From: Burkholderiales bacterium
Lineage (GTDB): Bacteria > Pseudomonadota > Gammaproteobacteria > Burkholderiales > UBA6910
DNA: 64,000 nucleotides
NCBI GenBank assembly: GCA_026005015.1
Contig: BPKG01000003.1
Coordinates: 248,001-312,000 of the forward strand
Reading direction: 5' to 3'
The number at the start of each line of letters is the position of its first letter. The first letter of the stretch is position 1. Shown one piece after another: positions 7,951 through 26,562 of this stretch. Under the pieces are notes generated by a model. The model was not told where the DNA came from. It saw only the letters and a list, made by a program, of their open reading frames with translations, and did no database searches. The position numbers and the translations under genes were made by a program.

Positions 7951-8301
7951 ATGAGTTCCGACCGTCGTTACTTGCCGGAAGAGGCCGACGAGGCCGCCAT
8001 CAACCAGGTGCTGGAAGCCGAGCGCGCGGCCCGGGAGCGGATCGAGGGCGCCCGGCAGGAGGCGGGCGGGTTGATCGCCGACGCGCGCCGAGAAGCCCGG
8101 CGCATTCAAGAGCGAACCGATGCCCGCGTCACCCGACTTCGCGCCGCATGCCAGCGGCGGGTGGCCCAGCGCGCCGCCGAGCTGGAGCGGGCCGCCCAGG
8201 AAATGCAGTCCATTCCCGTCCAGCAGGACGAGCGCTACGCGCGCCTGGACGAGGCCGTCGCCCGCTTGGCCGCCGCGCTCACCGGAGGAGATATTCCATG
8301 A
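7951..8301 (+). CDS. V/A-type ATPase peripheral stalk subunit (G/H-like)
   Basis: A 116-residue, highly charged, almost wholly alpha-helical protein with heptad-like Ala/Glu/Arg spacing from about residue 15 to 100 (RARERIEGARQEAGGL), as in the small peripheral-stalk subunit of archaeal/bacterial V-type ATPases (AhaH, NtpF, Thermus G). It opens a nine-gene operon and overlaps the next gene by ATGA. The family call rests on size, coiled-coil character and position rather than specific motifs. It would pair with the E subunit (11540-12169) as the stator. Confidence 0.7.
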   Translation: MSSDRRYLPEEADEAAINQVLEAERAARERIEGARQEAGGLIADARREARRIQERTDARVTRLRAACQRRVAQRAAELERAAQEMQSIPVQQDERYARLDEAVARLAAALTGGDIP

Positions 8302-9077
8302 GGGGCGGCGGCGCATTCGCCTATGCCCAGGCGCGTCTCCAGGCGCATCACGGACAGCGGGCCGGCGATCCCGTGTTCCAGTCCCTCGCCCCGATCGCCG
8401 AGTTCCGTCCTTACCTGGAGCGGGCGCGGCTCACTCCCCTCAAACCCTGGATACTAAACATCGGCCCCGGAAGCGATCCCCACGAGATCGAGCGCTTGCT
8501 GCGCGCCCACTTCCGGGCACGCATCGAGGAGGCGGCGGCGTGGGTCCCCGCCGCCTGGCGGGCGCCGGTGCGCTGGACCCAAGTGCTCGTCGATTTGCCG
8601 GCGCTCGAATACCTTCTGCGCGGCGAGCCGGCCCTGCCGTGGATGATGGAGGAGGACAGTCTAAAGGCCCTCGCCCTGGCCGAGCCCAAAGCGCGCCGCG
8701 CCGTGCTCGGGCTAGGGGACTACGGGCCCCTGGCCCAGGGCGCGGACAGGGAATCTCTGCTGGAGCGCTGGTTGCGGGCGTGGCGCTCCCTGCTCCCGAG
8801 GATGCCGAACCGCGCCGCCCGCCGGCTCGAAGGGCTGGTCGTACTGGTCCGCGACCACCGCGCCGCTTTCGCCCCGGCGCCCTCGGGCGAGACCCCATCG
8901 CCGCGGGCCGCTTGGGACGCCCGCCGGCGGCTCGAGGCGCAAGCCGCGCGCCACTTCCGGCGGGCTTTCCTCGAGCCGGCCGCGGTGTTCGCCCATCTGC
9001 TCCTCCTCGCCCTGGAATTCGAGCGCCTGCGCGGCGCCCTCGTGACCCGGCGCCTCTTCGCCTCGGAGGGCGGTTGA
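8298..9077 (+). CDS. Divergent V/A-type ATPase subunit C (d-like), putative
   Basis: A 259-residue soluble protein starting at the ATG that overlaps the previous stop. It begins AFAYAQARLQAHHGQRAGD and ends with ALEFERLRGALVTRRLF. The latter resembles the FEWERRNIR...RG.LFG end of subunit C, which sits between the rotor ring and the central shaft. The rest is too divergent for certainty. The operon has every other V-ATPase subunit and no other C candidate, and archaeal/Thermus operons also carry C, so position supports the call. Overlap TGATG with the next gene shows tight coupling. Confidence 0.6.
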   Translation: MRGGGAFAYAQARLQAHHGQRAGDPVFQSLAPIAEFRPYLERARLTPLKPWILNIGPGSDPHEIERLLRAHFRARIEEAAAWVPAAWRAPVRWTQVLVDLPALEYLLRGEPALPWMMEEDSLKALALAEPKARRAVLGLGDYGPLAQGADRESLLERWLRAWRSLLPRMPNRAARRLEGLVVLVRDHRAAFAPAPSGETPSPRAAWDARRRLEAQAARHFRRAFLEPAAVFAHLLLLALEFERLRGALVTRRLFASEGG

Positions 9078-10876
9078 TGCTGCGCCCGGTGCCCGCCCGC
9101 TGGTTCGAGGCCCTCGTCACCCATGACGACGTCGCCGCGGCGCTGGAGGCGCTCGCCCGCACCGGCACGGTGGAACTGGAGGTGCACGCCCCGCACCAGG
9201 CCCTCGCGCCCCTCGCAGAGCTGAAGCCCGCGCTCGACGCCTACGGCGATCTGGCGAGCCGTTATCGGCCCTACTGGCCTGCCGCGTCGGGCGCGGCGCC
9301 CGACGGCCTCCGCTCGCCGCGGGAGATCCTGGAGGAGGGGCTCGAGCGCCTGGCGCAATGGAGCAAAGCCGCCGATCCCGTGATCCGGCGGTTGCAGGCC
9401 CTCGAGCACGAAGCGGCCGAGCTGGAACTCTGGCGCGAGCTCTTCGAGCGCCACCCGGGAAGCGAAATCGAGTTCGACCTGCTGCGCCATCCCGACGGCA
9501 TGCTGGCGCGGCGGCTGTACGTTTTTCCTCTCGACGCGCCGCTGCCCCTGCCCGAAGGGGTGCTGGCCCGCCGCTTCCCGTTGAAACACCAGGCCTGCGT
9601 GCTGGTGGTGGGCCCACCGGAGGCCGTCGCCGACCTCGACCGCCAGGCGACCGCCCTCAAGGGCCGGGTGAGCGGGCTCCGCATCCCTCCCTGGCTCGGC
9701 GCGCGCGCGGCCGACAACCTGCTTCGCGTCGTCCGGCGCTTGGAGGAGATCCAGGCCGAGGGGGAGCGGGCGCGAGCGGAGCTGGCGGAGCTCAGCCGCC
9801 GCTTCGCGATCGCGCCTTGCATCGCCGCCATCGAGCGGCTGCGCTGGTTCGTGGCCCAAGTGCACCGGCTTCCGAGCACCGATTGCTTCGCCTGGCTCAC
9901 GGGCTGGACCTCCGATCTGGGCGGCAAGCGGCTCAAGGCGGCCCTGGAACGCGCGGGCGTGCGCGCCCTCCTGCGCTTTCCGTCTCCGCCCGAGGGAGCC
10001 AGACCTCCCCTCATCCTGAGAAACCCATGGTGGGCCCGGCCTTTCGAACTGTTCGCCCGGGCGATCGGGGTGCCTTCCCGGGATGAGGTGGATCCGAGCC
10101 CGTTGCTCGCCCTGGTGGTGCCCCTGCTGTTCGGCTACATGTTCGGCGACATGGGCCAGGGGCTGGTCATCCTGGTCGCGGGCCTGGCGCTGCGCCGGCG
10201 TCTTGCCGTGGCGCGGCTCTTCATCGCCGGGGGAATCGCGGCCATGGCCTTCGGCGCCCTGTTCGGGAGCGTCTTCGCCCGGGAGGACCTCATTCCGGCT
10301 CTCTGGTTGCACCCGTTGGATGAGCCCCTCACGGTGCTCGCCGTGCCCCTCGCTGGGGGAGCCCTGCTGCTTGCGCTGGGGCTCGTCCTCAACGGGGTGG
10401 AAGCGGGGTGGCGCGGCGAAGCCCGCCGCTGGCTGCAGCGGGATGCCGGTATGCTGCTGTTCTACGCCGGGATGCTCGGTGCCGTCCTCGAGCCAGCCCT
10501 GATCTGGGCGGCCTTCGGCGGCCTCGTCTGGTACGCCGCCGGGCACGCCCTGGGCGAGGGTCGCTGGAGCGGCCTCCCCGGCGGCCTCGGCGGCGCCCTC
10601 GAAAGCGCTTTCCAGCTCGCCCTCAACACCCTCTCCTTCGCCCGGGTGGGCGCCTTCGCCCTCGCCCACGCGGGCCTCGGCTCGGCGACGATGGCGCTGG
10701 CGGAGGCCGCCGGCGGCGCGGCGCCGGTGATCCTCGCGCTGGGAAACGCCCTCATCATCCTGCTGGAGGGATTGGTGGTCTCGATCCAGACCACCCGTCT
10801 CGTGCTGTTCGAGTTTTTCATCCGGTTCCTGCGCGGCGAGGGCCGCCCGTTCCGCCCCCTGGCCGTGCCCTATTGA
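9077..10876 (+). CDS. V/A-type ATPase membrane subunit I (a-type)
   Basis: A 599-residue stator membrane subunit that forms the ion half-channels. The N-terminal half (to about 330) is soluble and partly coiled-coil (EEIQAEGERARAELAEL). The C-terminal half has seven or eight hydrophobic helices. The essential arginine facing the rotor carboxylate is seen in LSFARVGAFALAHAG near residue 523. LFGYMFGDMGQGL is the conserved first membrane motif of the family. Starts at ATG 9077 (TGATG overlap). It is slightly shorter than typical 640-residue I subunits. Confidence 0.92.
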   Translation: MLRPVPARWFEALVTHDDVAAALEALARTGTVELEVHAPHQALAPLAELKPALDAYGDLASRYRPYWPAASGAAPDGLRSPREILEEGLERLAQWSKAADPVIRRLQALEHEAAELELWRELFERHPGSEIEFDLLRHPDGMLARRLYVFPLDAPLPLPEGVLARRFPLKHQACVLVVGPPEAVADLDRQATALKGRVSGLRIPPWLGARAADNLLRVVRRLEEIQAEGERARAELAELSRRFAIAPCIAAIERLRWFVAQVHRLPSTDCFAWLTGWTSDLGGKRLKAALERAGVRALLRFPSPPEGARPPLILRNPWWARPFELFARAIGVPSRDEVDPSPLLALVVPLLFGYMFGDMGQGLVILVAGLALRRRLAVARLFIAGGIAAMAFGALFGSVFAREDLIPALWLHPLDEPLTVLAVPLAGGALLLALGLVLNGVEAGWRGEARRWLQRDAGMLLFYAGMLGAVLEPALIWAAFGGLVWYAAGHALGEGRWSGLPGGLGGALESAFQLALNTLSFARVGAFALAHAGLGSATMALAEAAGGAAPVILALGNALIILLEGLVVSIQTTRLVLFEFFIRFLRGEGRPFRPLAVPY

Positions 10877-10896
10877 CCTTGATCGAGGAGGCTTGC

Positions 10897-11247
10897 GTGC
10901 AGCGAAAAATGAAGATAGCCATCGCCCTCACCGTGGTTTGCGCCGTACTGGGTGCTCTCACCGGCGTGCTCCTGTGGGGACCCTGGGCCCTGGCGGCGGA
11001 GGCGGCTGCGGGCGCCGCCGTGAGCGGCGAGGCGCTGAGCTGGGGCTTTGCCAGCGCCGGGGCGGCGACCGGGCTCGCGGCCATCGGCGCCGGCATCGCA
11101 GTGGCCAACGTGGGTGCCGCGGCGGTCGGGGCGATCGCGGAAAAGCCGGAGCTCTTCGGCCGGCTGCTCATCCTGGTGGGGCTGGCCGAAGGGATCGCCA
11201 TCTACGGCCTGATCGTCTCGATCCTGATCCTCAACCGGCTCGCCTGA
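10897..11247 (+). CDS. V/A-type ATPase proteolipid subunit K (c-ring)
   Basis: A 116-residue proteolipid. An N-terminal signal-like helix precedes two ring helices: GAATGLAAIGAGIAVANVGA and LILVGLAEGIAIYGLIVSIL, with ion-carrying glutamate E98. The start is the GTG at 10897, five bases after AGGAGG; an ATG at 10912 is also possible. The first ring helix lacks the Gln used for Na+ liganding in Na+-specific rings, and the Glu is followed by Gly rather than Ser/Thr. H+ coupling is therefore more likely than Na+ (inference). Confidence 0.9.
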   Translation: MQRKMKIAIALTVVCAVLGALTGVLLWGPWALAAEAAAGAAVSGEALSWGFASAGAATGLAAIGAGIAVANVGAAAVGAIAEKPELFGRLLILVGLAEGIAIYGLIVSILILNRLA

Positions 11248-11249
11248 CT

Positions 11250-11543
11250 ATGGTGCCCATCTTCATCGGGGACGAAGTGAGCGCCGCCGGCTTCCGGCTC
11301 GCGGGCCTCCTCGCCCGGACGCCGCCTCCCGGCGAGGAAGCGCCGCTTTTCGAATCCGCCCTGGGCGAAACATCGCTGGTGCTGGTCACCGCCGAGGTGG
11401 CCGCCCGCATCCCCACCCCCCTCCTTTCCCGCGCTCTCGCCGGGCCGTTACCCCTGGTCCTCGTGATCCCCGACGTGCGCGGCCGCCGGGCGCCGCTGGA
11501 CCTGGGACGCGCCGTGCGCCTGCAGCTCGGCATGGAGCCATGA
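11250..11543 (+). CDS. V/A-type ATPase subunit F
   Basis: A 97-residue small subunit of the central rotor shaft. It starts PIFIGDEVSAAGFRLAG, matching the family opening where a GDE/A.GFRLAG stretch forms the first Rossmann-like strand and helix. It then has TSLVLVTAEVAARIP and ends in PLVLVIPDVRG, the family's IP core. ATG 11250 follows the K stop by two bases; its own stop overlaps the E start by ATGA. Length is normal (95-110). Confidence 0.85.
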   Translation: MVPIFIGDEVSAAGFRLAGLLARTPPPGEEAPLFESALGETSLVLVTAEVAARIPTPLLSRALAGPLPLVLVIPDVRGRRAPLDLGRAVRLQLGMEP

Positions 11544-12169
11544 GCGGCGCGCTCGAGCAAATGCTGCGCCTGGTAGGCGAGCGGGAACGGCGGGAGCGGG
11601 AAGCGATCCTGGCCCAGGCCCGGGCCGAGGCGCGTCTAATCGTGGCCGAGGCGCGATCCGAGGCACGTAAGCGAGTGCGCCGGGACGTGGAGGAGATGCG
11701 CCAGTGGGTGCGCCAGGAAATCGGACGGGCGGAAGCGGCGTTCGAGACCGCGAAGCGCCGCCATCAGTCGCAGCGCGACGCGGCGCTGCTCGAGGCGGGA
11801 TGGGGGCGGCTGCGAGAGGCCCTCGCCGCCCGCTGGCGGGACCCCGCGGCGAGGCGCGCCTGGGTGGAGATGCTCCTTCGGGAAGCGCTCGCGAGCTTGC
11901 CCAAGACCGCCTGGGACATCGTCCATCCCCGCGACTGGCCGGAGGCGGAGCGCACCGCGCTGGCACAACGCCTGGAAGGCGCGCTGGGCCATCCGCCCCG
12001 CTTCCACCCATCCCCGGACTGCTCAGCCGGGTTAAAGCTGTGCGCCGGCGGCGCCTGCCTGGACGGAACCCTCGAGGCAATCCTGCTGGACCGCCCGGAG
12101 ATCGAAGCGCGGCTCCTCGCGGAGCTGGGCAGGGAAGCGAGCAAACGCCAGGCGGCGGGAGCGAAATAG
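11540..12169 (+). CDS. V/A-type ATPase subunit E (peripheral stalk)
   Basis: A 209-residue stator protein: a long N-terminal coiled coil (about 5-95, with AEARLIVAEARSEARKRV) and a globular C-terminal domain (about 100-200) ending CAGGACLDGTLEAILLDR. The latter matches the G.D.T....I..R pattern of E subunits that contact the B subunit. It would pair with the first gene of the operon. A 118-bp gap holding a dispersed repeat separates it from subunit A. Confidence 0.85.
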   Translation: MSGALEQMLRLVGERERREREAILAQARAEARLIVAEARSEARKRVRRDVEEMRQWVRQEIGRAEAAFETAKRRHQSQRDAALLEAGWGRLREALAARWRDPAARRAWVEMLLREALASLPKTAWDIVHPRDWPEAERTALAQRLEGALGHPPRFHPSPDCSAGLKLCAGGACLDGTLEAILLDRPEIEARLLAELGREASKRQAAGAK

Positions 12170-12178
12170 GGAGCGTCC

Positions 12179-12283
12179 TAAAAATGCTTGACGGCGCTCG
12201 GCCCTCTCCACTTCCCCCTCTCCCAGCGGGAGAGGGGAACAGGACCGCGGTCAATGGTTCGTCAACCATTGACCGGGGGCTCA
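12179..12283. repeat. Dispersed intergenic repeat, copy B, inside the V-ATPase operon
   Basis: Same element as 5277-5464: begins TGCTTGACGGCGCTCGGCC, has a CCCTCTCCC...GGGAGAGGGG stem, and ends with a perfect hairpin at 12249-12274 (GGTCAATGGTT-CGTC-AACCATTGACC) then GGCTCA. It lies between atpE- and atpA-type genes and ends four bases before the ATG, so it lies in the leader of subunit A and may affect its translation or relative expression. Confidence 0.7.
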
Positions 12284-12287
12284 ATCG

Positions 12288-14034
<1,747 letters not shown>

Positions 14035-14045
<11 letters not shown>

Positions 14046-15459
14046 GCTGGTGGTGGAAGGGGCAGCCACCCGCCTCGACGGGCCGCTCCTGTTCCTGCGG
14101 CGCGTGGTCGAAGCCGGGCTCAACGACGCGGTGGAGGTCCTGGGCAGCGACGGGCGTCCCCGGCTCGGGCGCGTGGCGACACTGGACGAAGCGCACATCG
14201 TGATCGAGGTGCTGGAGAGCACCGCGGGCCTCGCCCTGCCCGACACCCGCGTGCGCCTCCACGGCGGCCCGCTGCAGTTCAACGTGGGACCGGGGATCCT
14301 GGGGCGGGTCTTCAACGGCGTGGGACAGCCCATCGACGGCGGACCGCCGGTCGCCGCGGAGAGAAGCCTCCCCATCGAAGGCTTTCCCCTGAACCCCGTG
14401 GAGCGCAGCATCCCGCGGGACTTCATCGAGACGGGCATCTCCACCATCGACCTCATGAATTCCCTGGTGCGGGGGCAAAAGCTGCCCCTGTTCTCGGGGG
14501 GCGGGCTGCCCCATGACCGCATGGCGGCGGAGATCGCCATCCATGCGCGCCTGCGCCGCGGCGGCATCCGGGACCATGGGCAAAGCGGCGGACGGGGCGC
14601 CGCCCGCGCCGAGGACTTCGCCATCGTCTTCGCCGGCATCGGGCTGACCTACGAAAGCGCCGAGCATTTCCGCCGCGCCTTCGAAGAGTCCGGGGCCATG
14701 GGCCGCACGGCCCTGTTCCTCAACCTCGCCTCGGATTCGAGCACGCAGCGGCTGCTCACGCCGCGCTTCGCCCTCACCGCCGCAGAGTACCTGGCCTTCA
14801 CCGAAGGCAAGCACGTGCTCGCCATCATGACCGACCTCACCAACTACTGCGAGGCGCTGCGGGAGGTCTCGGCGAGCCACGGGGAGATCCCCTCGCACAA
14901 GGGCTATCCCGGCTACCTTTACTCGGACCTCGCCACCCTCTACGAGCGGGCCGGCTGCCTGCGGGGCTCGCCGGGAACGCTCACGCAGCTTCCGATCCTC
15001 ACCATGCCCGCGGACGACATCGGCCACCCGATCCCGGACCTCTCCGGCTACATCACCGAGGGCCAGATCGTCCTCGACCGGGAGCTTGACCGCCGCGGCA
15101 TCTACCCGCCGGTCAAGGTGCTGCCGTCCCTGTCGCGGCTGATGAAGGACGGTACCGGCGCGAAATACACCCACCCCGATCATCCGGCCCTCGCTAGCCA
15201 GCTCTTCGCCGCCTACGCCCGGGCGATGCAGGCGCGCATCCTGGCGAGCGTGGTGGGCGAGGAAGGCCTGTCTGAGACCGATGTCAAGTACCTGGCGCTG
15301 GGCGAGCGCTTCGAACGCGACCTGGTGAATCAGCCGGGCCCGCGCACCCTGGAGGAGAGCATGGCGATCGGCTGGCGCATCCTGCGGGCCCTGCCGAGGA
15401 GCGAGCTCACGCGGCTTTCGGACGCCCAGATCGCGGCGCACATCGAGGGCCGCCCATGA
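14035..15459 (+). CDS. V/A-type ATPase regulatory subunit B
   Basis: A 474-residue non-catalytic head subunit. The P-loop is degenerate (FSGGGLPHDRMAAEIA instead of GKT), as expected for B. Other family marks are IDLMNSLVRGQKLPLFS, TDLTNYCEALREVS and YPGYLYSDLATLYERAG. The start at 14035 lies inside the end of subunit A, giving translational coupling. The C-terminus overlaps subunit D by four bases. It forms the A3B3 hexamer with the preceding gene. Confidence 0.96.
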
Positions 15460-16084: not shown

Positions 16085-17431
16085 TCAGCGCTCCTCCGGG
16101 AGGTGCGCTTCCTGGGGCGGCTTGATCCTGTGCCGCACCATCTTCTCCCACAGGTTCTTGCGGCTGATGCCCAGCGCCTGGGCGGCGCGGCCGATCTGCC
16201 ACTGTTGGCGCTGCAAGGCCTGCAAGATATAGCTCGCTTCGCACTCCTCCAGGTATCGCGCCAGGTTGACCGCACCCGTTGGCGGGGGAAGCGACGCGAG
16301 CTGGCCGGGCTCGAAGAACGCCTCTGGCCCGAGCGCTTCATCGGGACAGAGAATACAGGCGCGCTCGATCGCGTGCCGCAGCTCCCGCAGGTTGCCCGGC
16401 CAGGGATAGCACAGCAGGGCCCGCTCCGCCTCCGCCGCGAGACGGCGCCGCGGCGTGCCGTGCTGGGCGGCGAACTCCTCCAGGAAGCGCTCGGCGAACC
16501 ACAGGATGTCCTCGCGCCGCTCCCGCAGGGGCGGCACCCGCAGGTGGATGACGTGGATGCGATAATAAAGGTCTTCCCGGAAGCGCCCCTGCTCGGTCAG
16601 CACCCTCAAGTCCTGATGGGTGGCACATACCAGCCGCAGGGAAACGGGGATCGCCTTTTCGCCGCCGACCCGCACTACCGCCCGCTCCTGGATCGCCCGC
16701 AGCAGCTTCACCTGCATCGGGAGCGGCATCTCGCCGATCTCGTCCAGGAACAGGGTGCCGCCGTGGGCCTGCTCGAACACGCCCCGGTGGGTACGCACGG
16801 CGCCGGTGAACGCGCCCCGCTCGTGCCCGAACAGCTCCGCCTCCAGCAGGGATTCGCTGACCGCGCCGCAGTTCACTGCCACGAACGCGCCGCCGCCCGC
16901 CACCCGGTGGAGCTCCCGCGCCACCCACTCCTTGCCGACCCCGGATTCCCCGGTGATGAGCACCGTGGAAGCATGCCGGGCGAGGCGCGGCAGCGTCTCG
17001 GCGATGCGCCGCATGGCCGGCGACAGCCCAAGGCCGGCCGGAACGGGCGCCACGGTGAAGGCACCCAGGGCGCGCACCTTCTCCACGAACTCATCCAGGT
17101 CGAACGGCTTGGTGACGTAATCGGCCGCCCCCTCCTTCAGCAGCCTCACCGCCCGATCGATGGAGCCGAAGCCGGTGATGAACAGGAACGGCGGCAGCGC
17201 CTGCGCTTCGCCCTTGAGCTGCCGGAACATGTCCTCGCCGCTCAACCCCGGCAGCCGCACGTCGCTTACCACCACCGCGTAGCGGCGGCGGCGAATGGCT
17301 GCCATGGCGGCCCGGGCGTCCCGGTGCCAATCGACGGCGTAGCCCTCCAGGCGGAACCGGTCCACCAGGGACTCGCCCATGATCGGGTCGTCTTCAACCA
17401 GGCACAGCGCCGGCGGGTGCTCGTGTTTCAT
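16085..17431 (-). CDS. arxR: Sigma-54-dependent response regulator, ArxR/AioR-like
   Basis: A 448-residue NtrC-type activator. The receiver domain (about 8-120) has DDP acidic residues, phospho-acceptor in [13 protein letters not shown] and Lys in YVTKPFD. The AAA+ domain has Walker A GESGVGKE and the sigma-54 contact motif ERGAFTGA. The C-terminal Fis-type helix-turn-helix reads [18 protein letters not shown]. Its ATG lies inside the kinase gene (38-base overlap). With the kinase and PhnD-like protein it forms the same X-S-R trio that controls arsenite oxidases, and it faces an arx operon. Expected targets are the GTTAC-N6-GTAAC pair at 19861-19910. Confidence 0.87.
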
Positions 17432-18938
17432 GCTCCGGGCTCACGGGAAGATGGACGACGAAGCGGGTCTCGCCGGGCTCGCTGTGCACGCGGATCGACC
17501 CGCCCAATTGCTGCACGATCTGGTAGGTGACCCATAGCCCCAGGCCGTTGCCGTCTTCGCTCAACCGGGAGAAGGGCTCGAACAGGTACTGCTGCTCGTG
17601 CTCGGGGATGTAGGCGCCGTCGTTGCTCACGCGGATCTCCAGGCGTTCCCCCACGACCCGCATGCCGCACTCGATGCGACCACCCGCCTCCACCGCGCGG
17701 GTGGCGTTGAGCAGCAGGTTGAGCAGGATCTGGCGCACCAGGGTGGAGGGCAGCGGCAAGGGCGCCTCGATCCGGTTGTCCCAGGCGAGATGTGCGCCCT
17801 TGGGGTGGGCGTCGGACAGGACCAGGATGCGGATATCCTCCAGGTCCTGGGGCGTCAGGGGATGGCTTTCCACCTTGGCCTCCACTAGCAGGGCCCCCAC
17901 CGTTTCCTTGATCTGCAGGAGGCCGCGCTCCAGGAGGGACAGCGTGCGCTGGCTCAGGGCCAGGTTCCCGGGCAAGGCGCACTCGCTGCACGGCTCCCCA
18001 CGTCCCGGGGCAAGGGGCGGCAGCGCCTCGCCCCCGTGCCGGCGGTAGGTGCTGATCGCGTTGAGCATGCCTCCCAGCGGATTGTTGATCTCGTGGGCGA
18101 TCCCGGCCGAGAGCCGGCCCAGCGCCGCGAGCCGCTCGCTCACCATCACTTGTTTCTCCATCGTCTCTTTCTCGCGCAGCTCGGCCAGCATGCGCTGGAA
18201 AGCCGCCCCCAACTGGCCGATCTCGTCCCGGGATTCTCTCAAGGAGCATTCGATCTCCTCGGGCTTTCGCGTTCCCACGAGCCGCATGCATTCGGCGAGC
18301 CGCACCAGGGGAATCGCCATGCGGTGCCCCCAGTACCAGGCGATCGGCAGGATCGCCGCCACCACCAGCAGGGTTATGAAGAATGCGTTTTTCACAATGC
18401 CGTCAAAGCGCTGGGCAAAGATCGACTTGGAATAGGTCATGACCAGCGTGGCGACGCGCACACCGTCGGCCATCACGGGCGCCAGCACGTAGATGTTGCG
18501 CCCTCCGGCCGGCTCCACCGTGACCGGGTTTTCCCCGGAAAGGACCGCCAATGGGCCGGCGAGGGCCGCCAGCTCCGGGTTCGCCCGGGCTGGGTCGCTC
18601 AAGATCGGATAACGCTCGGGATGGCTGGAGACGTACACCCGGTCCTTTTCGTCCAGCACGACGATCGCCTCCACCCGAGTCGCATCGCCGGCATCGAGGG
18701 CCTGGAGCGGGGTGCGCACGATTTCGAAGGCGCGCCACACGTCGTCGTGGATCACCAGCGGCGTCAGGGTGCGGGCCAGCACCCGGGCCAGGCGCTCGGC
18801 GCTCGCCTTGAGGTCGTGCTCGAGATCCACCGAAGCGCGGTAAACCAGCGAGGCGGTCACCATCAACGCGGTCGCCAGGATCACCACGGCGCCCTGCAAC
18901 GGAATCTTGTGGCGCAGGCTCAAGTCCCGCAGCCGCAT
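17394..18938 (-). CDS. arxS: Sensor histidine kinase, ArxS/AioS-like
   Basis: A 514-residue membrane kinase starting at the ATG one base past the arxX stop. A first membrane helix (about 12-32), a periplasmic sensing region of about 150 residues, a second helix (about 195-215) and a HAMP-like linker are followed by the H-box GIAHEINNPLGGML and ATP-binding boxes NLLLNATRAV and GNGLGLWVTYQIV. Unusual: a CxxC (EPCSECALPG) lies between the H-box and the ATP-binding domain, which could bind metal or respond to thiol reagents such as arsenite (inference). Translationally coupled to arxR. Confidence 0.85.
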   Translation of the reverse strand: MRLRDLSLRHKIPLQGAVVILATALMVTASLVYRASVDLEHDLKASAERLARVLARTLTPLVIHDDVWRAFEIVRTPLQALDAGDATRVEAIVVLDEKDRVYVSSHPERYPILSDPARANPELAALAGPLAVLSGENPVTVEPAGGRNIYVLAPVMADGVRVATLVMTYSKSIFAQRFDGIVKNAFFITLLVVAAILPIAWYWGHRMAIPLVRLAECMRLVGTRKPEEIECSLRESRDEIGQLGAAFQRMLAELREKETMEKQVMVSERLAALGRLSAGIAHEINNPLGGMLNAISTYRRHGGEALPPLAPGRGEPCSECALPGNLALSQRTLSLLERGLLQIKETVGALLVEAKVESHPLTPQDLEDIRILVLSDAHPKGAHLAWDNRIEAPLPLPSTLVRQILLNLLLNATRAVEAGGRIECGMRVVGERLEIRVSNDGAYIPEHEQQYLFEPFSRLSEDGNGLGLWVTYQIVQQLGGSIRVHSEPGETRFVVHLPVSPEHETRAPAGAVPG

Positions 18939-18939
18939 G

Positions 18940-19809
18940 TCACGCCCCTTGCGTCGCCCGCCACATGCGGGCGATGGAATCGAAGAGTTCCGGCCGCTCC
19001 ACCGAGAATCCATCGAGGTTGAGCCGCCTCAGAAGCGCCTGGCCCTCGGCGTCGCCGTCCATGCCGGTCAGGGCGGCCTGCAGGGCGGCGAAGTCCTGGG
19101 GGGAAACGCTCGAGCGAGCCACGAACGGTGGGTGGCCGAACTCGGGGGAACGGGCCGCCACCCGGGTTTTCGCCGTGAGCTCAGGGTGCATCTGCGCCAG
19201 CGTCTCCCACACGTAGCTGTCCACCGCGCCGCCGTGGGCCAGGCCGCTCGCCACCGCTTCCACCACCTTGCGGTGGGCCCAGGTGAAAAACGTCCGCAAG
19301 AAAAAAACGTCCGGGTTTTCCCCGTTGCGGATGAGGAAGTAGCGGGGAAACAGGTACCCCGAGTTGGAGTCCGGATCCGAGTAAGCGAACACCCGGCCCC
19401 GCAGGTCCAGCAGGGAGCGGGTGTGCGGATCGGACGCCGGCACGATCAGGTAGGAACGGTACAGGGGCTTTCCCCGGAACACCGGCACCGCCAGGAGTTT
19501 CACCCGCTCTCCCAGGCGCACGTAGGGATAGCCGCACAGCCAGGCGAAGTCGATGTGTCCCGGGCCGAGTAGCTCGTACACTTCCCGGTAGCTCCCCCGC
19601 TGCACGAAAGCGATGGGCCGCTCGAGCCGGCGCTCCAGGTAGGCCTTCCACCGCCGCAGGAACGCCGCCTGGTCGTCGAGGAAGACCGGCGTCAGCCCGA
19701 TGCGCACCGGGGCCTGCGGCTCCACGCCGATGGCCCCGGCGAAGGGCAACAGGGCGAGCGTCGCCAGGGCCCGGCGCCTGCCTTTCCATGGCCTGGCACA
19801 GCTTTCCAT
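18940..19809 (-). CDS. arxX: PhnD-like periplasmic binding protein, ArxX/AioX-like sensor
   Basis: A 289-residue secreted protein of the phosphate/phosphonate-binding (PhnD) fold. The start at 19809 follows GAGGAGAA and gives a clear signal peptide (RRRALATLALLPFAGA). A longer frame to 19962 would run through the operator sites. Motifs: IGLTPVFLDDQ, FAWLCGYPYVRLG, SDPDSNSGYLFPRYFL. In AioX proteins this fold binds arsenite with a cysteine and signals to a kinase. Here the mature protein has a single Cys (C92 in WLCGYPY), a possible ligand (inference). The adjacent kinase and regulator genes, and no ABC transporter genes, support a sensor role. Confidence 0.82.
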   Translation of the reverse strand: MESCARPWKGRRRALATLALLPFAGAIGVEPQAPVRIGLTPVFLDDQAAFLRRWKAYLERRLERPIAFVQRGSYREVYELLGPGHIDFAWLCGYPYVRLGERVKLLAVPVFRGKPLYRSYLIVPASDPHTRSLLDLRGRVFAYSDPDSNSGYLFPRYFLIRNGENPDVFFLRTFFTWAHRKVVEAVASGLAHGGAVDSYVWETLAQMHPELTAKTRVAARSPEFGHPPFVARSSVSPQDFAALQAALTGMDGDAEGQALLRRLNLDGFSVERPELFDSIARMWRATQGA

Positions 19810-19860: not shown

Positions 19861-19910
19861 GTTACGCAACGGTAACCGTTTTCCTCGTCGCCCCGTTACC
19901 GGGCGGTAAC
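19861..19910. promoter_or_regulatory. Two GTTAC-N6-GTAAC inverted repeats, candidate ArxR enhancer sites
   Basis: Site 1 is 19861-19876 (GTTAC-GCAACG-GTAAC) and site 2 is 19895-19910 (GTTAC-CGGGCG-GTAAC). Both have perfect 5-bp arms and identical spacers in length, with centres 34 bp apart. They lie 52 bp upstream of arxX and 68-117 bp upstream of the -24/-12 candidate for the arx operon, the usual distance for a sigma-54 activator. Confidence 0.7.
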
Positions 19911-19948
19911 GATCAAGCCCATTAAAGCACTTTGCGCCCCTTGGGAAT

Positions 19949-19962
19949 TTGCGCTGGATCAA
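19949..19962. promoter_or_regulatory. Weak Fnr-like site TTGCG-CTGG-ATCAA in arx promoter region
   Basis: The right half ATCAA is perfect; the left half matches only TTG. It lies between the candidate ArxR sites and the -24 element. Anaerobic control of arx would make sense biologically, but with two mismatches this is only a suggestion. Confidence 0.2.
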
Positions 19963-19976
19963 ATCCTTACCGCCTG

Positions 19977-19992
19977 TGGCGCGCTTCGTGCG
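19977..19992 (+). promoter_or_regulatory. Sigma-54 (-24/-12) promoter candidate for the arx operon
   Basis: Reads TGGCGCG-CTTC-GTGCG against TGGCACG-N4-TTGCW. The invariant GG (19978-19979) and GC (19990-19991) are separated by exactly 10 bases. Start would be near 20003. The sigma-54 activator gene next door and the paired upstream sites support it. Confidence 0.55.
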
Positions 19993-20066
19993 TCATGGGG
20001 TTGGCGATGGAGACGCAAGATCCCGGAAAGTTCAAAGGTCGGAATATAAAAGTAATCACTAGCGCC

Positions 20067-21254
20067 ATGGATGTCCAGCCGGCGGACGGCGAGGAGGCGA
20101 GGTTGAAATTCGCGAGGCTTCATCCCCAAGCCCCGGTGGGATTCGCGGCCGAGGCATGCCTGCCGCTGCGCTCCCGCTACGCCCGCTGCGACGCTTGCCA
20201 GCAGGCGTGCCCCGCCGGCGTGCTCGCGCTGGACCAAGAGGCGCTGCGGATGGGGGACGGCTGCCTCCACTGCGGGCGATGCGCGGCGGCCTGTCCGACC
20301 GGCGCCCTCGCCGTGCCCGGTTTCGTGCCGCAAGCGGTCGTGGCGAGCAGCCCGCGGCCGCTGTCGGTGGAGTGCTGGAAGGTGCCCCGGCGGCTTTCCG
20401 CCCGGGAAGCGGTGCGGGTCCCCTGCCTGGGGGGCCTGTCCGTGGGGCGCTGGCTGACGCTGCGGGCCGCGGCGGGCAAGCGGCCGCTCGAAGCGGTCGA
20501 TCGAGGCTGGTGCGGCCGTTGCTCGGCCGGGGGCGCCACCCATCCGGCGGCATCCGCCGTGGCGCAGGCGAACCGGCTCCTGGAGGAGATGGGCGAGCCG
20601 CCCCAAGCCTTGATCCGCTTCGTGCACAAGCCGCTGCCGGTCAAAGCCATGCCGGAGGCGATCCCGGAGCCCGCGGCCGAGTTTTCTATGGGGCGGCGCG
20701 CCTTCTTCCGCGGCCTGGTGGGCCAGGCTGCGGAAGCGCTGAGCGTGATGGAGACGAGTGCTTCCGCGCCCGTTGCGGGCACCCGCAAGGTTCATCGGGG
20801 CCCGCTTCCCTCTCCGGAACGGACCCGAGTGGTCTCGGCGCTACGCCGGCTGGCGGATCGGTCCGGTCGGCCGCTTCCCCCTTCGATCTTTCCCGCGCTG
20901 CGCATCTCGGAAGCCTGCCGCAACCATCGGGTATGCGCCGCCACCTGTCCCACCGGCGCCCTCGCCGCTTACCAGGAGAACGGCGCCAGCGGCGTCGGCT
21001 TCGACGCCTCCGCCTGCATCGCCTGCGGCGAGTGCGAGCGCGCTTGCCCGGAGCAGGCGATCGGTTTCGCGCCGCCGGGCACCGGGGCGCTGTCCGGGAG
21101 ACCGGTTCGGCTGACCCGGGTCGAGGAGCGGGAATGCGCCGACTGCGGGCACCTTTTCGCCGAGCGCGGTGACGAGCCTTTGTGCGCCCCCTGCCGCAAA
21201 TCCCGCGACCTCGCCCGATCGGCGTTCCACCAGTTGTTCGCCGCCCGGGCATGA
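20067..21254 (+). CDS. arxB2: Multi-cluster 4Fe-4S ferredoxin protein (ArxB2-like)
   Basis: A soluble iron-sulfur protein of 395 residues from ATG 20067. Upstream in-frame ATGs at 19995 and 20007 would precede or abut the predicted transcription start. Cys groups: CDACQQACPAG and CLHCGRCAAACPTG near the N-terminus, a WCGRC, then CAATCPTG and CIACGECERACPEQ in the last third, and a C-terminal zinc-ribbon-like CADCGHLF...CAPC. This suggests up to four [4Fe-4S] clusters. Position first in the operon, before arxA, matches arxB2 in described arx clusters. Its role is presumably electron transfer; direct evidence is lacking. Confidence 0.75.
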   Translation: MDVQPADGEEARLKFARLHPQAPVGFAAEACLPLRSRYARCDACQQACPAGVLALDQEALRMGDGCLHCGRCAAACPTGALAVPGFVPQAVVASSPRPLSVECWKVPRRLSAREAVRVPCLGGLSVGRWLTLRAAAGKRPLEAVDRGWCGRCSAGGATHPAASAVAQANRLLEEMGEPPQALIRFVHKPLPVKAMPEAIPEPAAEFSMGRRAFFRGLVGQAAEALSVMETSASAPVAGTRKVHRGPLPSPERTRVVSALRRLADRSGRPLPPSIFPALRISEACRNHRVCAATCPTGALAAYQENGASGVGFDASACIACGECERACPEQAIGFAPPGTGALSGRPVRLTRVEERECADCGHLFAERGDEPLCAPCRKSRDLARSAFHQLFAARA

Positions 21255-21305: not shown

Positions 21306-23792
21306 ATGGAGTTTCTGCAAACCCTGATGAGCCGCCGGCGCTTCCTGCAGGTGACCGGAGCCACCGGCGCCGCGGCGGCCGGTAGCGCGGCGCTGCCGCG
21401 CCTCGCCGGCTTCTCCACCCTGTCCGAGGCCCGCGCCCAGCCGGCGGCCGGCTCCGGTCAGACCGTGATCACCAAGAGCATCTGCCACCAGTGCCCGGCG
21501 CGCTGCGGCATCGACGTCTACACCACCGACGGGCGGGTGCACGCGATCTACGGGGCGTCCAACAACCCGATCGCCAACGGCAAGCTCTGTCCCAAGGGGC
21601 ACCTCGGGACCTACATCCTCTACGACCCGGACCGCTTCAAGGGGCCGATGAAGCGCACCAACCCCAAGAAGGGGCGCAACGAAGATCCCAAGTTCGTTCC
21701 CGTCTCCTGGGACGAGGCTCTCCAGATCGTGGCCGACCGCTTGAACGCCTTGCGCGACAAGGGCGAGTCCCACCGTTTCGCGCTCTTATTCGGTCGCGGC
21801 TGGGGCGCGTCCTGCGCAGGTCTGCTGGGCGACTTCGGCAAGCTCTACGGCACGCCGAACGCCGGCATCAACCACTCGTCCATGTGCTCCGACGGCAGCA
21901 AGAAAGCGAAGAAGGCGACGGACGGCAACTACTCCTACAGCGCCTACGACTACCGCAACTGCAACTACCTGCTCAACTTCGGCGCCTCGTTCCTTGAAGC
22001 GTTTCGCCCCTACAACTACTTGATGCAAATGTGGGGGCACATGCGCTCCAAGAGCCCCAAGACACGAGTCACGGTCGTCGAGGTGCACCTCAACACCACC
22101 GCAGCGGCCGCCGACCGGGCGCTTTTCGTCAAGCCGGGCACCGACGCGGCCCTGGCGCTCGCCATCGCCCACGTCATGCTCACGGAAGGGCTGTGGGACA
22201 AGGAGTTCGTGGGCGACTTCGCCGACGGGCAGAACCGGTTCAAGCCCGGCCAGAGCGTCGATCCCGCGGCGTTCAGGGAGAAGTGGACCCTCGGGCTCGT
22301 CGACTGGTGGAACGCCGTGGTGAAGGACGCGACCCCCAACTGGGCCGCCGGCATCACCACCATCGCCGAGCGGGACATCGTGGAGACGGCCCGCGAGTTC
22401 GGCACCACGCGGCCCGCCATCGCTCTCTTCGAGCGCGGCCCGACCGCCCACTCCAACGGCACCTACGCCGGGATGTGCATCCACGCCTTGAACGCCCTGG
22501 CCGGGTCCCTCTTCGCCAAGGGCGGGCTCATGTACCAGATGGGCCCGGCCTACGGCCCGCCGCCGGTCAAGGTCGAGGACTATCTGGACGAATACGCCAG
22601 ATCGGAGGAGCGTAAAAAGTATCCAAGGATCGACCTGGTGGGCACCGAGGAATGGCCCATGGCGAGCAACATGATGCAGGAGATCGCCCAGAACCACCTG
22701 GCCGGCAAGCCCTACAAGCTGGACACGGTGATGTTCTATCTGACCAACCCGATTTGGACCGCCCCCAACCCACAGCAGTGGGAAGAGGCGCTCAAGGACG
22801 TGTTCGTGATCGACACCTCCCCGTTTCCGGGCGAGACCGCCATGTACGCCGACATCGTCCTGCCGGACCACACCTACCTGGAGCGCCTGCAGGACACGCC
22901 CACCTATCCCTTCGAAGGCTGGCCTATGGCGGGGCTGCGCACCCCGGCGATCAAGCCGCTCTACGACACCAAGGTGTTCGGCGACATCCTGATCGAGATC
23001 GGAAAGCGCATCAAGGGTCCGACAGGGGAGTACTACAAGAAGCTGGAGAGCACCGAGAACCTGCTGCGCCACCTGGCCAAGGGCTTCGCCGACAGCCCCG
23101 GCACCAACGGGGTCACCGACTTCGAGTCGTGGAAGCGGGAAGGGGTGTGGTACAGGAAGCCCTATCTGTGGCAGCAACGGCGCGGAGAGTTCTACGAGTG
23201 GGACGGCCAGGGCTACAACAGGTTGATGAAGCCCGAGGAGGTGAAGGCCAAGCTGCTCAAGACCACCTCGGGCAAGTTCGAGTTCCGCTCCGGTTATCTG
23301 GAACAGCACGCCGAGTTCATCCATCGCAAGCTCGGCATTGCCCAGGACAAGGTGGGCTACCCGCAATACCTCCCGGCCAAGTACACCGGTGGCGGCGACC
23401 TGCATTTCGTGACGCCCAAGGTGGCGATGCACGCGGAGGGCCGCGGCGCCAATATTCCCACCGCCATCGCCCTGCTTCAGCCAACGATGGGTGGCAGGAA
23501 GACGGTGTACCTGGAGATCCATCCCGACACCGCCAGGAAGCGCGGCATCGGGGACGGCGACCGGGTGCGGATCAAGTCGGCGGTAGGCAGCATCGAAGCG
23601 ATCGCCCGCTACGCCCCGGGGACCCGGCCGGACACGGTGGTGCTGCCCATGGAGCATGGCCATTGGGCGTGGGGGCGCTGGGCCAAGGGACGGCTGCCCG
23701 GCCATTCCGGTGAGGTCACGGCGAACCAATCCGACCCGATCTCCGGCCTCGCCAACTATTACACCGGCATGGTGACCGTGGAAAAGGCCTAA
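21306..23792 (+). CDS. arxA: Molybdopterin oxidoreductase, arsenite oxidase ArxA
   Basis: An 828-residue catalytic subunit of the DMSO-reductase superfamily with a twin-arginine signal (MSRRRFLQV). C60-x2-C63-x3-C67...C95 binds one [4Fe-4S] cluster. C194 (INHSSMCSDG) is placed to ligate molybdenum. Residues 162-167 read FGRGWG, the XGRGWG motif I recall as distinguishing ArxA (anaerobic arsenite oxidase) from ArrA (arsenate reductase). The gene order around it (X-S-R sensor trio divergent from B2-A-B-C-D) is the arx arrangement. Good RBS GGAGGAGG. Polysulfide or tetrathionate reductase are alternatives but fit the motif and sensors less well. Confidence 0.85.
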   Translation: MEFLQTLMSRRRFLQVTGATGAAAAGSAALPRLAGFSTLSEARAQPAAGSGQTVITKSICHQCPARCGIDVYTTDGRVHAIYGASNNPIANGKLCPKGHLGTYILYDPDRFKGPMKRTNPKKGRNEDPKFVPVSWDEALQIVADRLNALRDKGESHRFALLFGRGWGASCAGLLGDFGKLYGTPNAGINHSSMCSDGSKKAKKATDGNYSYSAYDYRNCNYLLNFGASFLEAFRPYNYLMQMWGHMRSKSPKTRVTVVEVHLNTTAAAADRALFVKPGTDAALALAIAHVMLTEGLWDKEFVGDFADGQNRFKPGQSVDPAAFREKWTLGLVDWWNAVVKDATPNWAAGITTIAERDIVETAREFGTTRPAIALFERGPTAHSNGTYAGMCIHALNALAGSLFAKGGLMYQMGPAYGPPPVKVEDYLDEYARSEERKKYPRIDLVGTEEWPMASNMMQEIAQNHLAGKPYKLDTVMFYLTNPIWTAPNPQQWEEALKDVFVIDTSPFPGETAMYADIVLPDHTYLERLQDTPTYPFEGWPMAGLRTPAIKPLYDTKVFGDILIEIGKRIKGPTGEYYKKLESTENLLRHLAKGFADSPGTNGVTDFESWKREGVWYRKPYLWQQRRGEFYEWDGQGYNRLMKPEEVKAKLLKTTSGKFEFRSGYLEQHAEFIHRKLGIAQDKVGYPQYLPAKYTGGGDLHFVTPKVAMHAEGRGANIPTAIALLQPTMGGRKTVYLEIHPDTARKRGIGDGDRVRIKSAVGSIEAIARYAPGTRPDTVVLPMEHGHWAWGRWAKGRLPGHSGEVTANQSDPISGLANYYTGMVTVEKA

Positions 23793-23801
23793 AGGAGGAC
23801 A

Positions 23802-24594
23802 ATGCAAATGGCGAAATGGGGAATGGTCATCGACCTGGACAAGTGCACCGGCTGCCAGGCCTGCACCACGGCGTGCGCCATGGAGAACAACCGGCTGCCG
23901 GGCGAGAACTGGCAGGACGTGCTGTTCTATCACCGAAGGCACCTATCCGAGCGCCCAGCTCAAATGGTTCCCGCGGCCGTGTTTTCATTGCGAGGACCCG
24001 TCCTGCGTGCACGTGTGCCCGACCAAGGCCACCTACAAGGATCCGGACGGCGGCTTCGTGCTGATCGACTGGAACAAATGCATCGGCTGCAAATACTGCA
24101 TGATCGCCTGCCCGTACGGGGTGCGCTTCTACGCCGACGAGAAGCCGGTGGTGGGCGGCGCGACCGGCGGGCCCGGGCCGGATATCCGCGAGGTGTTCCC
24201 CGGCGACGGCAAGCGCTCCTGGAACCCGCCGTGGCGCGCGCCGGACACCCGCGACGACTGGGTGCACGGGGTGGGCATCCAGCCCCATGGGGTGGTGTCC
24301 AAATGCACCTTCTGCTATCACAAGGTGAGTAAGGCGCCTCCGGGGACGCCCGACTTGGACGAGGACGATCCGGCGCTGAAAGAGTACGTGCCCGCGTGCG
24401 TGCGCACCTGTCCGCCCAAGGCGCGCTACTTCGGCGACCTGGACAACCCCGAAAGCCGGGTAAGCAAACTCATCGCCGACAAGCGGGGCGTGCGGCTCAA
24501 GGACGAAACCGGTAACAAGCCCCAGGTTTACTACCTCTCGGGGGGTGCCGGGCCGGCCGTGCCCAGCACCCGCGAAACCGTCGAGAAGACTTGA
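23802..24594 (+). pseudogene. arxB: ArxB-like 4Fe-4S electron-transfer subunit, one-base frameshift (status unclear)
   Basis: The first 43 codons read a normal ferredoxin subunit start (IDLDKCTGCQACTTACAMEN). At about 23928-23931 one extra base shifts the frame. The second frame continues perfectly from TEGTYPSAQLKWFPRPCFHC through CVHVCPTKATYKD, CIGCKYCMIACPYG, CTFCYHK and CVRTCPPKARYFGD. All four cluster motifs of a DmsB/PsrB-type subunit are intact across the two frames, so the break is more likely a sequencing error than decay. It would carry electrons from ArxA to the membrane subunit. Stop is 12 bases before the arxC start. Confidence 0.82.
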
Positions 24595-24606: not shown

Positions 24607-25746
24607 ATGACGACGATGACGAAATCGCCTGTTGGCCCCGTCAACACGGTGCTGGTCGCGTCCCTGGCGGGACTGGCGATCGGCCTGGCCATCGTGCTCA
24701 TCAACCTGGGCGCTCAAGGTCACGCGGCCTTCAACACCACCAGCCTGGGCCTCATGTGGGGCTTGCCCATCGTGACCTACGACTACTTCGTGGTGACCTC
24801 CACCGGCCTCACGCTGGTTGCCTGCTTGTCCCTCACGTTCGGCATGCGGGACTTCGATCCCGTCGCCCGGCGCTGCCTGTGGCTCGCCCTCGCCACTCTC
24901 TTGGGCGGCGTCGTGTCGTTGATGCTGGAGCTGGGCCATCCGCTGCGCTCCCTGTACGCCATCCCGCTCAACCTGCAGACGGATTCGCCCCTGTTCTGGA
25001 AGATGCTGTTCATGACCGCCTACGGCCTGCTGCTGCTCGCCGCCCTGTCCCGCGGCGGGTCCCGGCCCGGCCGGGGGCTCGCCGTCGCGCTCTTCGCCGC
25101 CGCCCTCGGCGTCGCGCTGCTGGCCGGCTCGGTGTTCGGCATGATGGCCATGCGGCCCATGTGGTACGGGGGCGAGGTACCGCTCGCGTTCCTGGCGGAA
25201 GGGCTGACTGGAGGGCTCGCCTTCGCCATCCTCGGGTCGTACCTCGCCTACGGCGGCCAGGCCGGCATGCCCGAGGGCGTAAAGCGCCTCATGACCGGGG
25301 CTTTGCCCAAGCTGTTCGCGCTGATGATCGCCATTACGGTGGCCATCGTCGCCGCCCGTACCGTGACCGGCCTGTGGAGCAACCTGGACGGGTTGCAGGT
25401 GTGGGACAAGATCGCCGCCTCCCCCCTCTACCACCTGCACCTGTGGGCGGGACTCGTGCTGCCCCTTGCCCTCATGCTCCTGCCGGGCCAGCGCACCGAC
25501 GGCACGATGCAAGTCGCGGCGGCGCTGCTGGTGGCGGTGGCTCTCTTCATCGGGCGCTACGAATTCGTGATCGGCGGGCAGCTCGTGCCCCTGTTCAAGG
25601 GGAGCTGGGCGCCGGCCTTCATCGACTACGCGCCCTCGTTCACCGAATGGATGCTCGCCCTGACTTCCCTGTCGATCGCCGCCTTCCTGTACACGGCAGG
25701 CGACAAGATCCTCGACCTGGGTGCCCTGCCCCAGGGCGAGGGTTGA
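24607..25746 (+). CDS. arxC: NrfD/PsrC-type membrane quinone-interacting subunit (ArxC)
   Basis: A 379-residue polytopic membrane protein with nine or ten hydrophobic helices, of the NrfD/PsrC family that anchors molybdo-enzymes and exchanges electrons with quinone. Seen: LMLELGHPLRSLYAIPLN and WKMLFMTAYGLLLLAALS in the first half, and LHLWAGLVLPLALML later. GAGGAGG precedes the ATG. Order A-B-C fits a periplasmic oxidase delivering arsenite electrons to the quinone pool. It could equally serve a reductase; direction is inferred from ArxA. Confidence 0.88.
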   Translation: MTTMTKSPVGPVNTVLVASLAGLAIGLAIVLINLGAQGHAAFNTTSLGLMWGLPIVTYDYFVVTSTGLTLVACLSLTFGMRDFDPVARRCLWLALATLLGGVVSLMLELGHPLRSLYAIPLNLQTDSPLFWKMLFMTAYGLLLLAALSRGGSRPGRGLAVALFAAALGVALLAGSVFGMMAMRPMWYGGEVPLAFLAEGLTGGLAFAILGSYLAYGGQAGMPEGVKRLMTGALPKLFALMIAITVAIVAARTVTGLWSNLDGLQVWDKIAASPLYHLHLWAGLVLPLALMLLPGQRTDGTMQVAAALLVAVALFIGRYEFVIGGQLVPLFKGSWAPAFIDYAPSFTEWMLALTSLSIAAFLYTAGDKILDLGALPQGEG

Positions 25747-25758
25747 CGGAGAAAGCGG

Positions 25759-26562
25759 ATGCTGAAGGTCACCGACAAGCGGCTGGAGCGGGCAGCGCCG
25801 GCACCTGACGAGGCGCTGCGGCTGCGCGCGGAATTCTACCTGTGCCTGGCGCGGGCGTTCCTTCCACCCGGGAACGAGGCCGATTTCCGCGCCCTGACCG
25901 CGTTCCTGGCCGACGATCTAGGGGACCTGGCGCGGCGCCTGGACTATCCGATCGCCGACGAGCTGTCCGAATTCCGGGCGGCGGCCTCGGCGCTGGCGGA
26001 CCCGCTTTCCCTGCTCCAAACCTACGCGGCCTTGTTCCTCACCCCGCCCGCGCCGGTGTCCATCAACGCCGGCATCTACCTGGACGGGGCGCTCATGGGC
26101 GAGAGCGTGCGGGCCATGGAGGCCTGCTACCGCCGCTGCGGCGTCGAGCGCGGCGAGCACTTCCGCGATCTCTCCGACCACGTGGCGGTGCAGTTGGAGT
26201 TCGCCGCCTACCTCTACGCCCGGGCGGCGGAAAGCCCCGCCGGCGAGGCGGAGCTGCCCCTCACGGCGGGGGAGTTCCTCGGCGCCTTCCCGCGCCGCTG
26301 GCTGCCGGCCTTCTGCGACAAGCTGGAAACCGCGACGCGCAAGCAGGGCATCGTGCCCAATCCCTATGCCCCGCTGGCGCGCATCCTGCAATGCGCGGTG
26401 GCGCAGGACGCGGTGCCCCTGCCCGATACGCCCGCCCAGGCCGAAAGACCCGCCCCGCCGCCCCTCGACGAGCAGGCGCTCCACGAGATGGCGCGCGTAT
26501 TGCGCGAGCGGGGGCTTTCCACCGAGCACCTGCTGCGCGCCGGCCTGCCGCCGATCGGGTGA
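25759..26562 (+). CDS. arxD: TorD-family molybdoenzyme chaperone (ArxD)
   Basis: A 267-residue cytoplasmic chaperone that would bind the twin-arginine leader of ArxA during cofactor insertion. The TorD hallmark is visible as FRDLSDHVAVQLEFAAYL followed by the late PNPYAPLARIL, with the all-helical DEALRLRAEFYLCLARAFL start. A Pro/Ala-rich tail (about 220-240) is longer than usual. It overlaps the downstream cytochrome gene (GTGA). Confidence 0.87.
   Translation: MLKVTDKRLERAAPAPDEALRLRAEFYLCLARAFLPPGNEADFRALTAFLADDLGDLARRLDYPIADELSEFRAAASALADPLSLLQTYAALFLTPPAPVSINAGIYLDGALMGESVRAMEACYRRCGVERGEHFRDLSDHVAVQLEFAAYLYARAAESPAGEAELPLTAGEFLGAFPRRWLPAFCDKLETATRKQGIVPNPYAPLARILQCAVAQDAVPLPDTPAQAERPAPPPLDEQALHEMARVLRERGLSTEHLLRAGLPPIG

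Follow-up and report, generated by a model that had tools for sequence, protein, structure and literature searches.

Paired inverted repeats upstream of a Burkholderiales arx operon as putative ArxR enhancers of a sigma-54 promoter

NtrC-type tandem enhancers consist of two palindromes with a separation of about three helical turns, located at about -100 to -140, from which a GAFTGA activator acts on sigma-54 promoters. Among regulators of arsenite oxidation, AioR of Agrobacterium tumefaciens GW4 was footprinted by DNase I on the 16-bp sequence GTTCGGATTTCCGAAC (aioBA and mcp promoters; PMC5335332). For the arx operon of Alkalilimnicola ehrlichii MLHE-1, a binding site for ArxR and an RpoN promoter were predicted by homology to AioR (PMC5908839). 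As of a 2019 study on Azoarcus, it had not yet been demonstrated that ArxRS controls the arx cluster (PMC6683785). Besides arsenite, arx is reported to require anoxia.

The arx locus and its paired repeats

The window, a stretch of 64,000 nucleotides from a Burkholderiales bacterium (assembly GCA_026005015.1, contig BPKG01000003.1), contains genes with the content and order of an arx cluster: arxB2ABCD and a divergent arxXSR, with arxC assigned by position and arxB frameshifted (Table 1; gene assignments are from Pfam and NCBIfam). The frameshift is caused by one extra base within 23925-23935 (near 23930) and is either a real mutation or an assembly error. The start of arxB2 at 20067 was preferred over a start at 20007, because indels break the intervening frame in a second genome from the same genus. 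The recognition helix of ArxR reads SRKNLWEKM. Just beyond arxR, at 8120-15459, lies an operon for a V/A-type ATPase (subunit I-like, A and B subunits). The first-pass annotation had pointed to ArxR because the window has no sigma-54 activator gene other than arxR; this is correct, but the host genome has roughly 20 such genes and the argument is weaker than it was put.

Between arxX and arxB2 there are two 16-bp inverted repeats with GT...AC ends and 5-6-5 geometry, whose starts are 34 bp apart and the first of which begins 52 bp upstream of the arxX ATG. The first-pass annotation had described two exact repeats of identical geometry at these distances, and a scan of the window and of the host genome (3,379,044 bp) agrees: exact GTTAC-N6-GTAAC occurs only as the two copies in the gap, and reversing the pattern as a control gives 0 matches in the window and the genome. 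Operator 2 has longer arms (cGTTACCG-GG-CGGTAACg, 8+2+8), and perfect pairing in operator 1 is limited to its 5-bp arms. In the second genome of the genus, the arms of both repeats are invariant and the repeat spacers differ.

In form and in location, within the promoter region of arsenite oxidase genes whose XSR genes adjoin, the repeats match AioR/ArxR-type operators, and we consider it very probable that ArxR uses them as a pair of enhancers to activate arx from a sigma-54 promoter. Arsenite would be bound by ArxX in the periplasm and ArxS would then phosphorylate ArxR; ArxR dimers would occupy both GTTACC-N4-GGTAAC-type sites, which face roughly the same side of the helix, and would assemble the AAA+ ring. 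Looping of the short intervening DNA, perhaps with an IHF-induced bend, would bring ArxR to the promoter, where the GAFTGA loop would open RNA polymerase-sigma-54 at the -24/-12 element. With transcription of arxB2ABCD starting near 20003, the sites would be at about -134 and about -100.

Table 1. Features of the arx locus (window positions) and exact sites within arxB2 at other loci (positions of the respective locus)
Feature	Position	Strand	Basis or remark
ArxR operator 1 (putative, distal UAS)	19861..19876	.	GTTACGCAACGGTAAC, exact GTTAC-N6-GTAAC
ArxR operator 2 (putative, proximal UAS)	19895..19910	.	GTTACCGGGCGGTAAC, exact GTTAC-N6-GTAAC
Candidate FNR-like box	19949..19962	.	TTGCGctggATCAA, 2 mismatches; overlaps the IHF candidate; in invariant block
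Candidate IHF site	19957..19969	+	GATCAAATCCTTA, one mismatch to WATCAANNNNTTR; between operators and promoter
-24/-12 (sigma-54) promoter element, predicted	19977..19992	+	TGGCGCGCTTCGTGCG; score 9.9, shuffle p=0.015
arxR, NtrC-type response regulator	16085..17431	-	Receiver, AAA+ with GAFTGA, Fis-type HTH
arxS, sensor histidine kinase	17394..19013	-	ORF limits; true start probably inside
arxX, periplasmic arsenite-binding protein (PF12974, phosphonate-type)	18940..19809	-	Pfam match on longer ORF; ATG 19809 after AGGAG
arxB2, ferredoxin-type Fe-S protein, first gene of the operon presumed to be controlled	20067..21254	+	ATG at 20067
arxA, molybdopterin arsenite oxidase subunit, ArrA-like	21306..23792	+	Pfam/NCBIfam, ArxA profile
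arxB, Fe-S subunit	23802..24594	+	Frame shifted by one base relative to same-genus copy
arxC-position ORF, membrane subunit by position only	24607..25746	+	No Pfam match
arxD, TorD/NarJ-type chaperone (PF02613)	25759..26562	+	Pfam
Intra-arxB2 sites, other loci	L009 7618; L011 6733; L020 2352; L072 5279; L073 8282; L075 8287; L076 7939; L077 8287; L078 8284; L091 8074		Exact GTTAC-N6-GTAAC

Distribution and spacing of the sites across arx loci

A search of 84,980 species genomes with an ArxA profile returned 80 named loci; the set was completed with two plasmid loci and three additional genomes. Divergent arxXSR genes are present at 41 loci (window included), which are from beta- and gammaproteobacteria and from one alphaproteobacterium. 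All 41 have a site in the gap within one mismatch and 38 have an exact one, with 61 exact sites in 15.9 kb of gap sequence, whereas a site is present at none of the 19 loci that lack arxXSR (Halomonas, Billgrantia, Nitrincola, Marinospirillum and others; each with >5 kb of upstream sequence). A Halomonas-type lineage without arxXSR was also reported by others (PMC6549141). The association between site and arxXSR (Fisher p ~1e-12) is descriptive, as the loci are related and the counts are not independent. Both controls were close to empty: all spacers from 0 to 15 other than 6 gave one exact match in total, and when all half-sites were combined with N6, GTTAC had 61 matches and the next best half-site 2. 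Thus, the motif is enriched upstream of other arx operons; a lack of such enrichment, which the first-pass annotation had named as refuting its proposal, was not seen. Exact sites outside arx loci are few genome-wide, near the count of the reversed control pattern, and therefore no large regulon is claimed. At one locus, L079, arxXSR shares the strand of arxA but is far downstream of it, and its ArxR has an R-K-N helix; no operator within one mismatch was found at this locus.

The consensus of 79 sites is GTTACC-N4-GGTAAC, and 34 of the 41 divergent loci have at least two sites. These are spaced, start to start, mostly by 43 bp (18 pairs) and 42-45 bp, or by 30-34 bp (9 pairs), corresponding to about four or three helical turns. 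A -24/-12 element follows the sites at 39 of the 41 loci, so that the GG-N10-GC element noticed at enhancer distance from the window repeats has counterparts at matching distance elsewhere. From the centre of the last site to the C of -12, the distance is largely 54, 64-65, 75-77, 85-89 or 98-101 bp, with a tail to 160 bp; in the window it is 88 bp from the centre of operator 2, inside the commonest class (85-89 bp). The classes step by ~11 bp, and a jitter test on 29 collapsed loci supports a period close to the helical repeat (p=0.001); as the best-fit period is 11-12 bp and not 10.5 bp, helical phasing is read only loosely.

This clustering bears on a second possible use of the sites, namely that they mainly serve autoregulation, with ArxR repressing or activating arxXSR from 52 bp off arxX and control of arxB2 being secondary. 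An effect on arxX had been raised in the first-pass annotation and the short distance allows it; at several loci the nearest site overlaps or abuts the arxX start. Yet across loci the distance to arxX varies from such overlap up to 240 bp or more, whereas the distance to -12 is clustered. In addition, a sigma-70 consensus promoter for arxX was not found in the gap, and the paired sites of alphaproteobacteria are in the arxR/arxB2 interval, at a distance from the arxX promoter. Autoregulation as the main role is therefore unlikely: the conserved function appears to be control of arxB2, and an effect on arxX is possible in addition.

Further sites are found at unexpected positions. Ten loci have an exact GTTAC-N6-GTAAC within the coding sequence of arxB2 (Table 1), with 10 in 82 kb of arxB2 compared with 0 in 211 kb of arxA; these sites are in constant reading phase with a TTA codon, encode mostly LPxGN and are possibly a downstream operator. 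L009 has a second operator pair (14809-14866, 42 bp apart) ~140 bp upstream of another molybdoenzyme gene downstream of arxD, which is likely an extra target of ArxR. The genome of arx locus L088 has a second XSR cassette (L153, 322-7322), divergent to the gene of an 851-aa molybdopterin enzyme, with three exact operator sites (4214, 4266 and 4577) near and between the two.

The promoter element and regulators without GAFTGA

The GG-N10-GC element of the window (TGGCGCGCTTCGTGC, 19977-19991; GG at 19978-19979, GC at 19990-19991) is weak when taken alone: its shuffle p is 0.015, its score of 9.9 is that of an imperfect match and compares with up to 18 at other loci, and the GC-rich window has eight such loose matches (the sigma-54 weights, like the IHF pattern, were entered from general knowledge). 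The GG-N10-GC core agrees with the YTGGCACG-N4-TTGC consensus, and the context in the window is weaker (TGGCGCG...GTGC). In the second genome of the genus, most of the -24/-12 element is unchanged, and so is the block from CGCCCCTTGGG through ATCAAATCCTT. The single IHF candidate of the window is a weak one; it lies within a block that is invariant between the two species, and IHF-like sites are present between operators and promoter at 11 of 39 loci, compared with 2.2 expected. FNR-like boxes were considered as a basis of anaerobic control and rejected: they are not generally conserved, and 8 of 41 loci compared with 2.5 expected is too weak to claim such a role.

A promoter element of this quality could suggest that transcription of arx does not depend on sigma-54 at all, the GG-N10-GC being a chance match in GC-rich DNA and ArxR or FNR acting on a sigma-70 promoter; loose matches are indeed common in the window, an FNR-like box is present and there are family members without GAFTGA. 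We judge this to be quite improbable, given that the same-genus genome has kept the element, that its distance from operator 2 is the modal one (88 bp), that ArxR carries GAFTGA and that rpoN was found in the host genome.

The family members without GAFTGA are informative here. Seven Rhodobacterales relatives of ArxR/AioR lack the motif (L010, L046, L047, L050, L084, L161 and L162). All seven loci have kept the operator; a clear -24/-12 element is present only at L046 (p=0.007), and L047 is borderline (p=0.053, without the GG). The alphaproteobacterial loci with GAFTGA or GAFSGA and the betaproteobacterial aio loci that were tested alongside all have strong elements (p<=0.003). NtrC of Rhodobacter capsulatus, which likewise has no GAFTGA, was reported to activate sigma-70 promoters (PMC10274813). 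The seven Rhodobacterales loci probably represent a sigma-70 variant of arsenite control. As GAFTGA and the -24/-12 element are mostly missing together, their joint loss supports a functional reading of the element in the window, where ArxR has GAFTGA.

Operator form, regulator lineage and known systems

The published AioR motif fits the window sites at the half-site positions and fails at the spacer positions; this was not taken as excluding membership, because the motif over-specifies the spacer and most arx sites fail likewise. Six alphaproteobacterial arx loci with co-directional arxXSR are without GTTAC and have sites of the type GTTCGG-N4-CCGAAC, in or beside the arxR/arxB2 gap and paired at 32-33 bp; the site of L063 is identical to the footprinted AioR sequence. 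The GTTCGG form is also that of alphaproteobacterial aio plasmid loci (including NT-26 and pSinA), and sites of alphaproteobacterial arx and aio loci are usually paired. The GTTACC form is found at three aio loci of betaproteobacteria that have XSR genes next to them. With GTTACC before betaproteobacterial aio and GTTCGG at alphaproteobacterial arx, the operator form therefore follows the lineage of the regulator and not the enzyme. The proposal of a specific ArxR recognition sequence thus survives in part: the motif precedes arx operons with arxXSR, but it also precedes betaproteobacterial aioBA and is replaced at the alphaproteobacterial ArxR loci. Judged from sequence, it is the beta/gammaproteobacterial form of the AioR operator and not exclusive to ArxR.

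The half-site letters track the recognition helix at 55 of the 56 loci with a readable helix: R-K-[N/S/T]-L-W occurs with GTTAC sites (41 of 42 loci) and R-T-T-L-W with GTTCG sites (14 of 14). In a tree built from 55 regulators, a single fully supported split separates the two operator classes. They therefore go back to one evolutionary event, which leaves the assignment to particular residues hypothetical. We lean slightly towards a model in which a single operator architecture is common to XSR arsenic regulators and the helix decides between two specificities (GTTACC for R-K-[N/S/T], GTTCGG for R-T-T), following regulator lineage for both Aio and Arx. In this model, the promoter type of the Rhodobacterales was switched under a kept operator, with loss of the sigma-54 contact (GAFTGA) by the regulator and mostly of the -24/-12 element, and the sites within arxB2 are additional operators of some loci.

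The same data speak against a binder other than ArxR, such as another bEBP or an arsenic repressor. One of the sigma-54 activators in the host genome has a similar helix, SRKTLERK; no other SRKNLW helix was seen among the host-genome bEBP helices examined. The sites track the presence of arxXSR across loci, their letters follow the helix of the R protein, and the homologous AioR was footprinted on the alphaproteobacterial form (PMC5335332), which makes another regulator very improbable. That the repeats are chance palindromes of a short GC-rich intergenic stretch is negligibly probable: single exact sites are expected about once per genome (0.66 by a simple estimate), but pairs within 60 bp only ~8e-6 times, the two sole genomic copies are 34 bp apart, and the comparative counts already refute it.

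Reading the repeats as ArxR enhancers, the paired operator, the clustered promoter spacing and the regulator-dependent distribution open ArxR control to a simple binding or reporter experiment. The motif can be used to search genomes and metagenomes for targets of ArxR, and the pairing of helix and half-site is a candidate specificity switch for arsenite biosensors. The paired consensus, the dependence on arxXSR, the correspondence of helix and half-site and the switch in promoter type were not found in the open-access papers searched and are the new parts; the proposal of an ArxR site as such was preceded by the one-species prediction for MLHE-1 (PMC5908839). This prediction shares an ArxR site and a -24/-12 element upstream of arx with the window; its site, gtaacaattcaagc, is one 14-base non-palindromic string, with no palindrome, pair, spacing or cross-species test. 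Searches of two taxonomic groups did not turn up the MLHE-1 arx promoter.

Altogether, it is well supported that the locus is an operator of an already known kind. With NtrC-type tandem enhancers it shares the paired layout, while recognition sequence and input signal differ. With the AioR operator of A. tumefaciens GW4 it shares the 16-bp repeat, the GT...AC ends, the 5-6-5 geometry and the position upstream of an arsenite-oxidase operon, and the binder in GW4 is a response regulator of the XSR family; it differs in the half-site, which is GTTCGG in the GW4 footprint and GTTACC/G in the window, and in having a pair of sites where a single one was reported for GW4.
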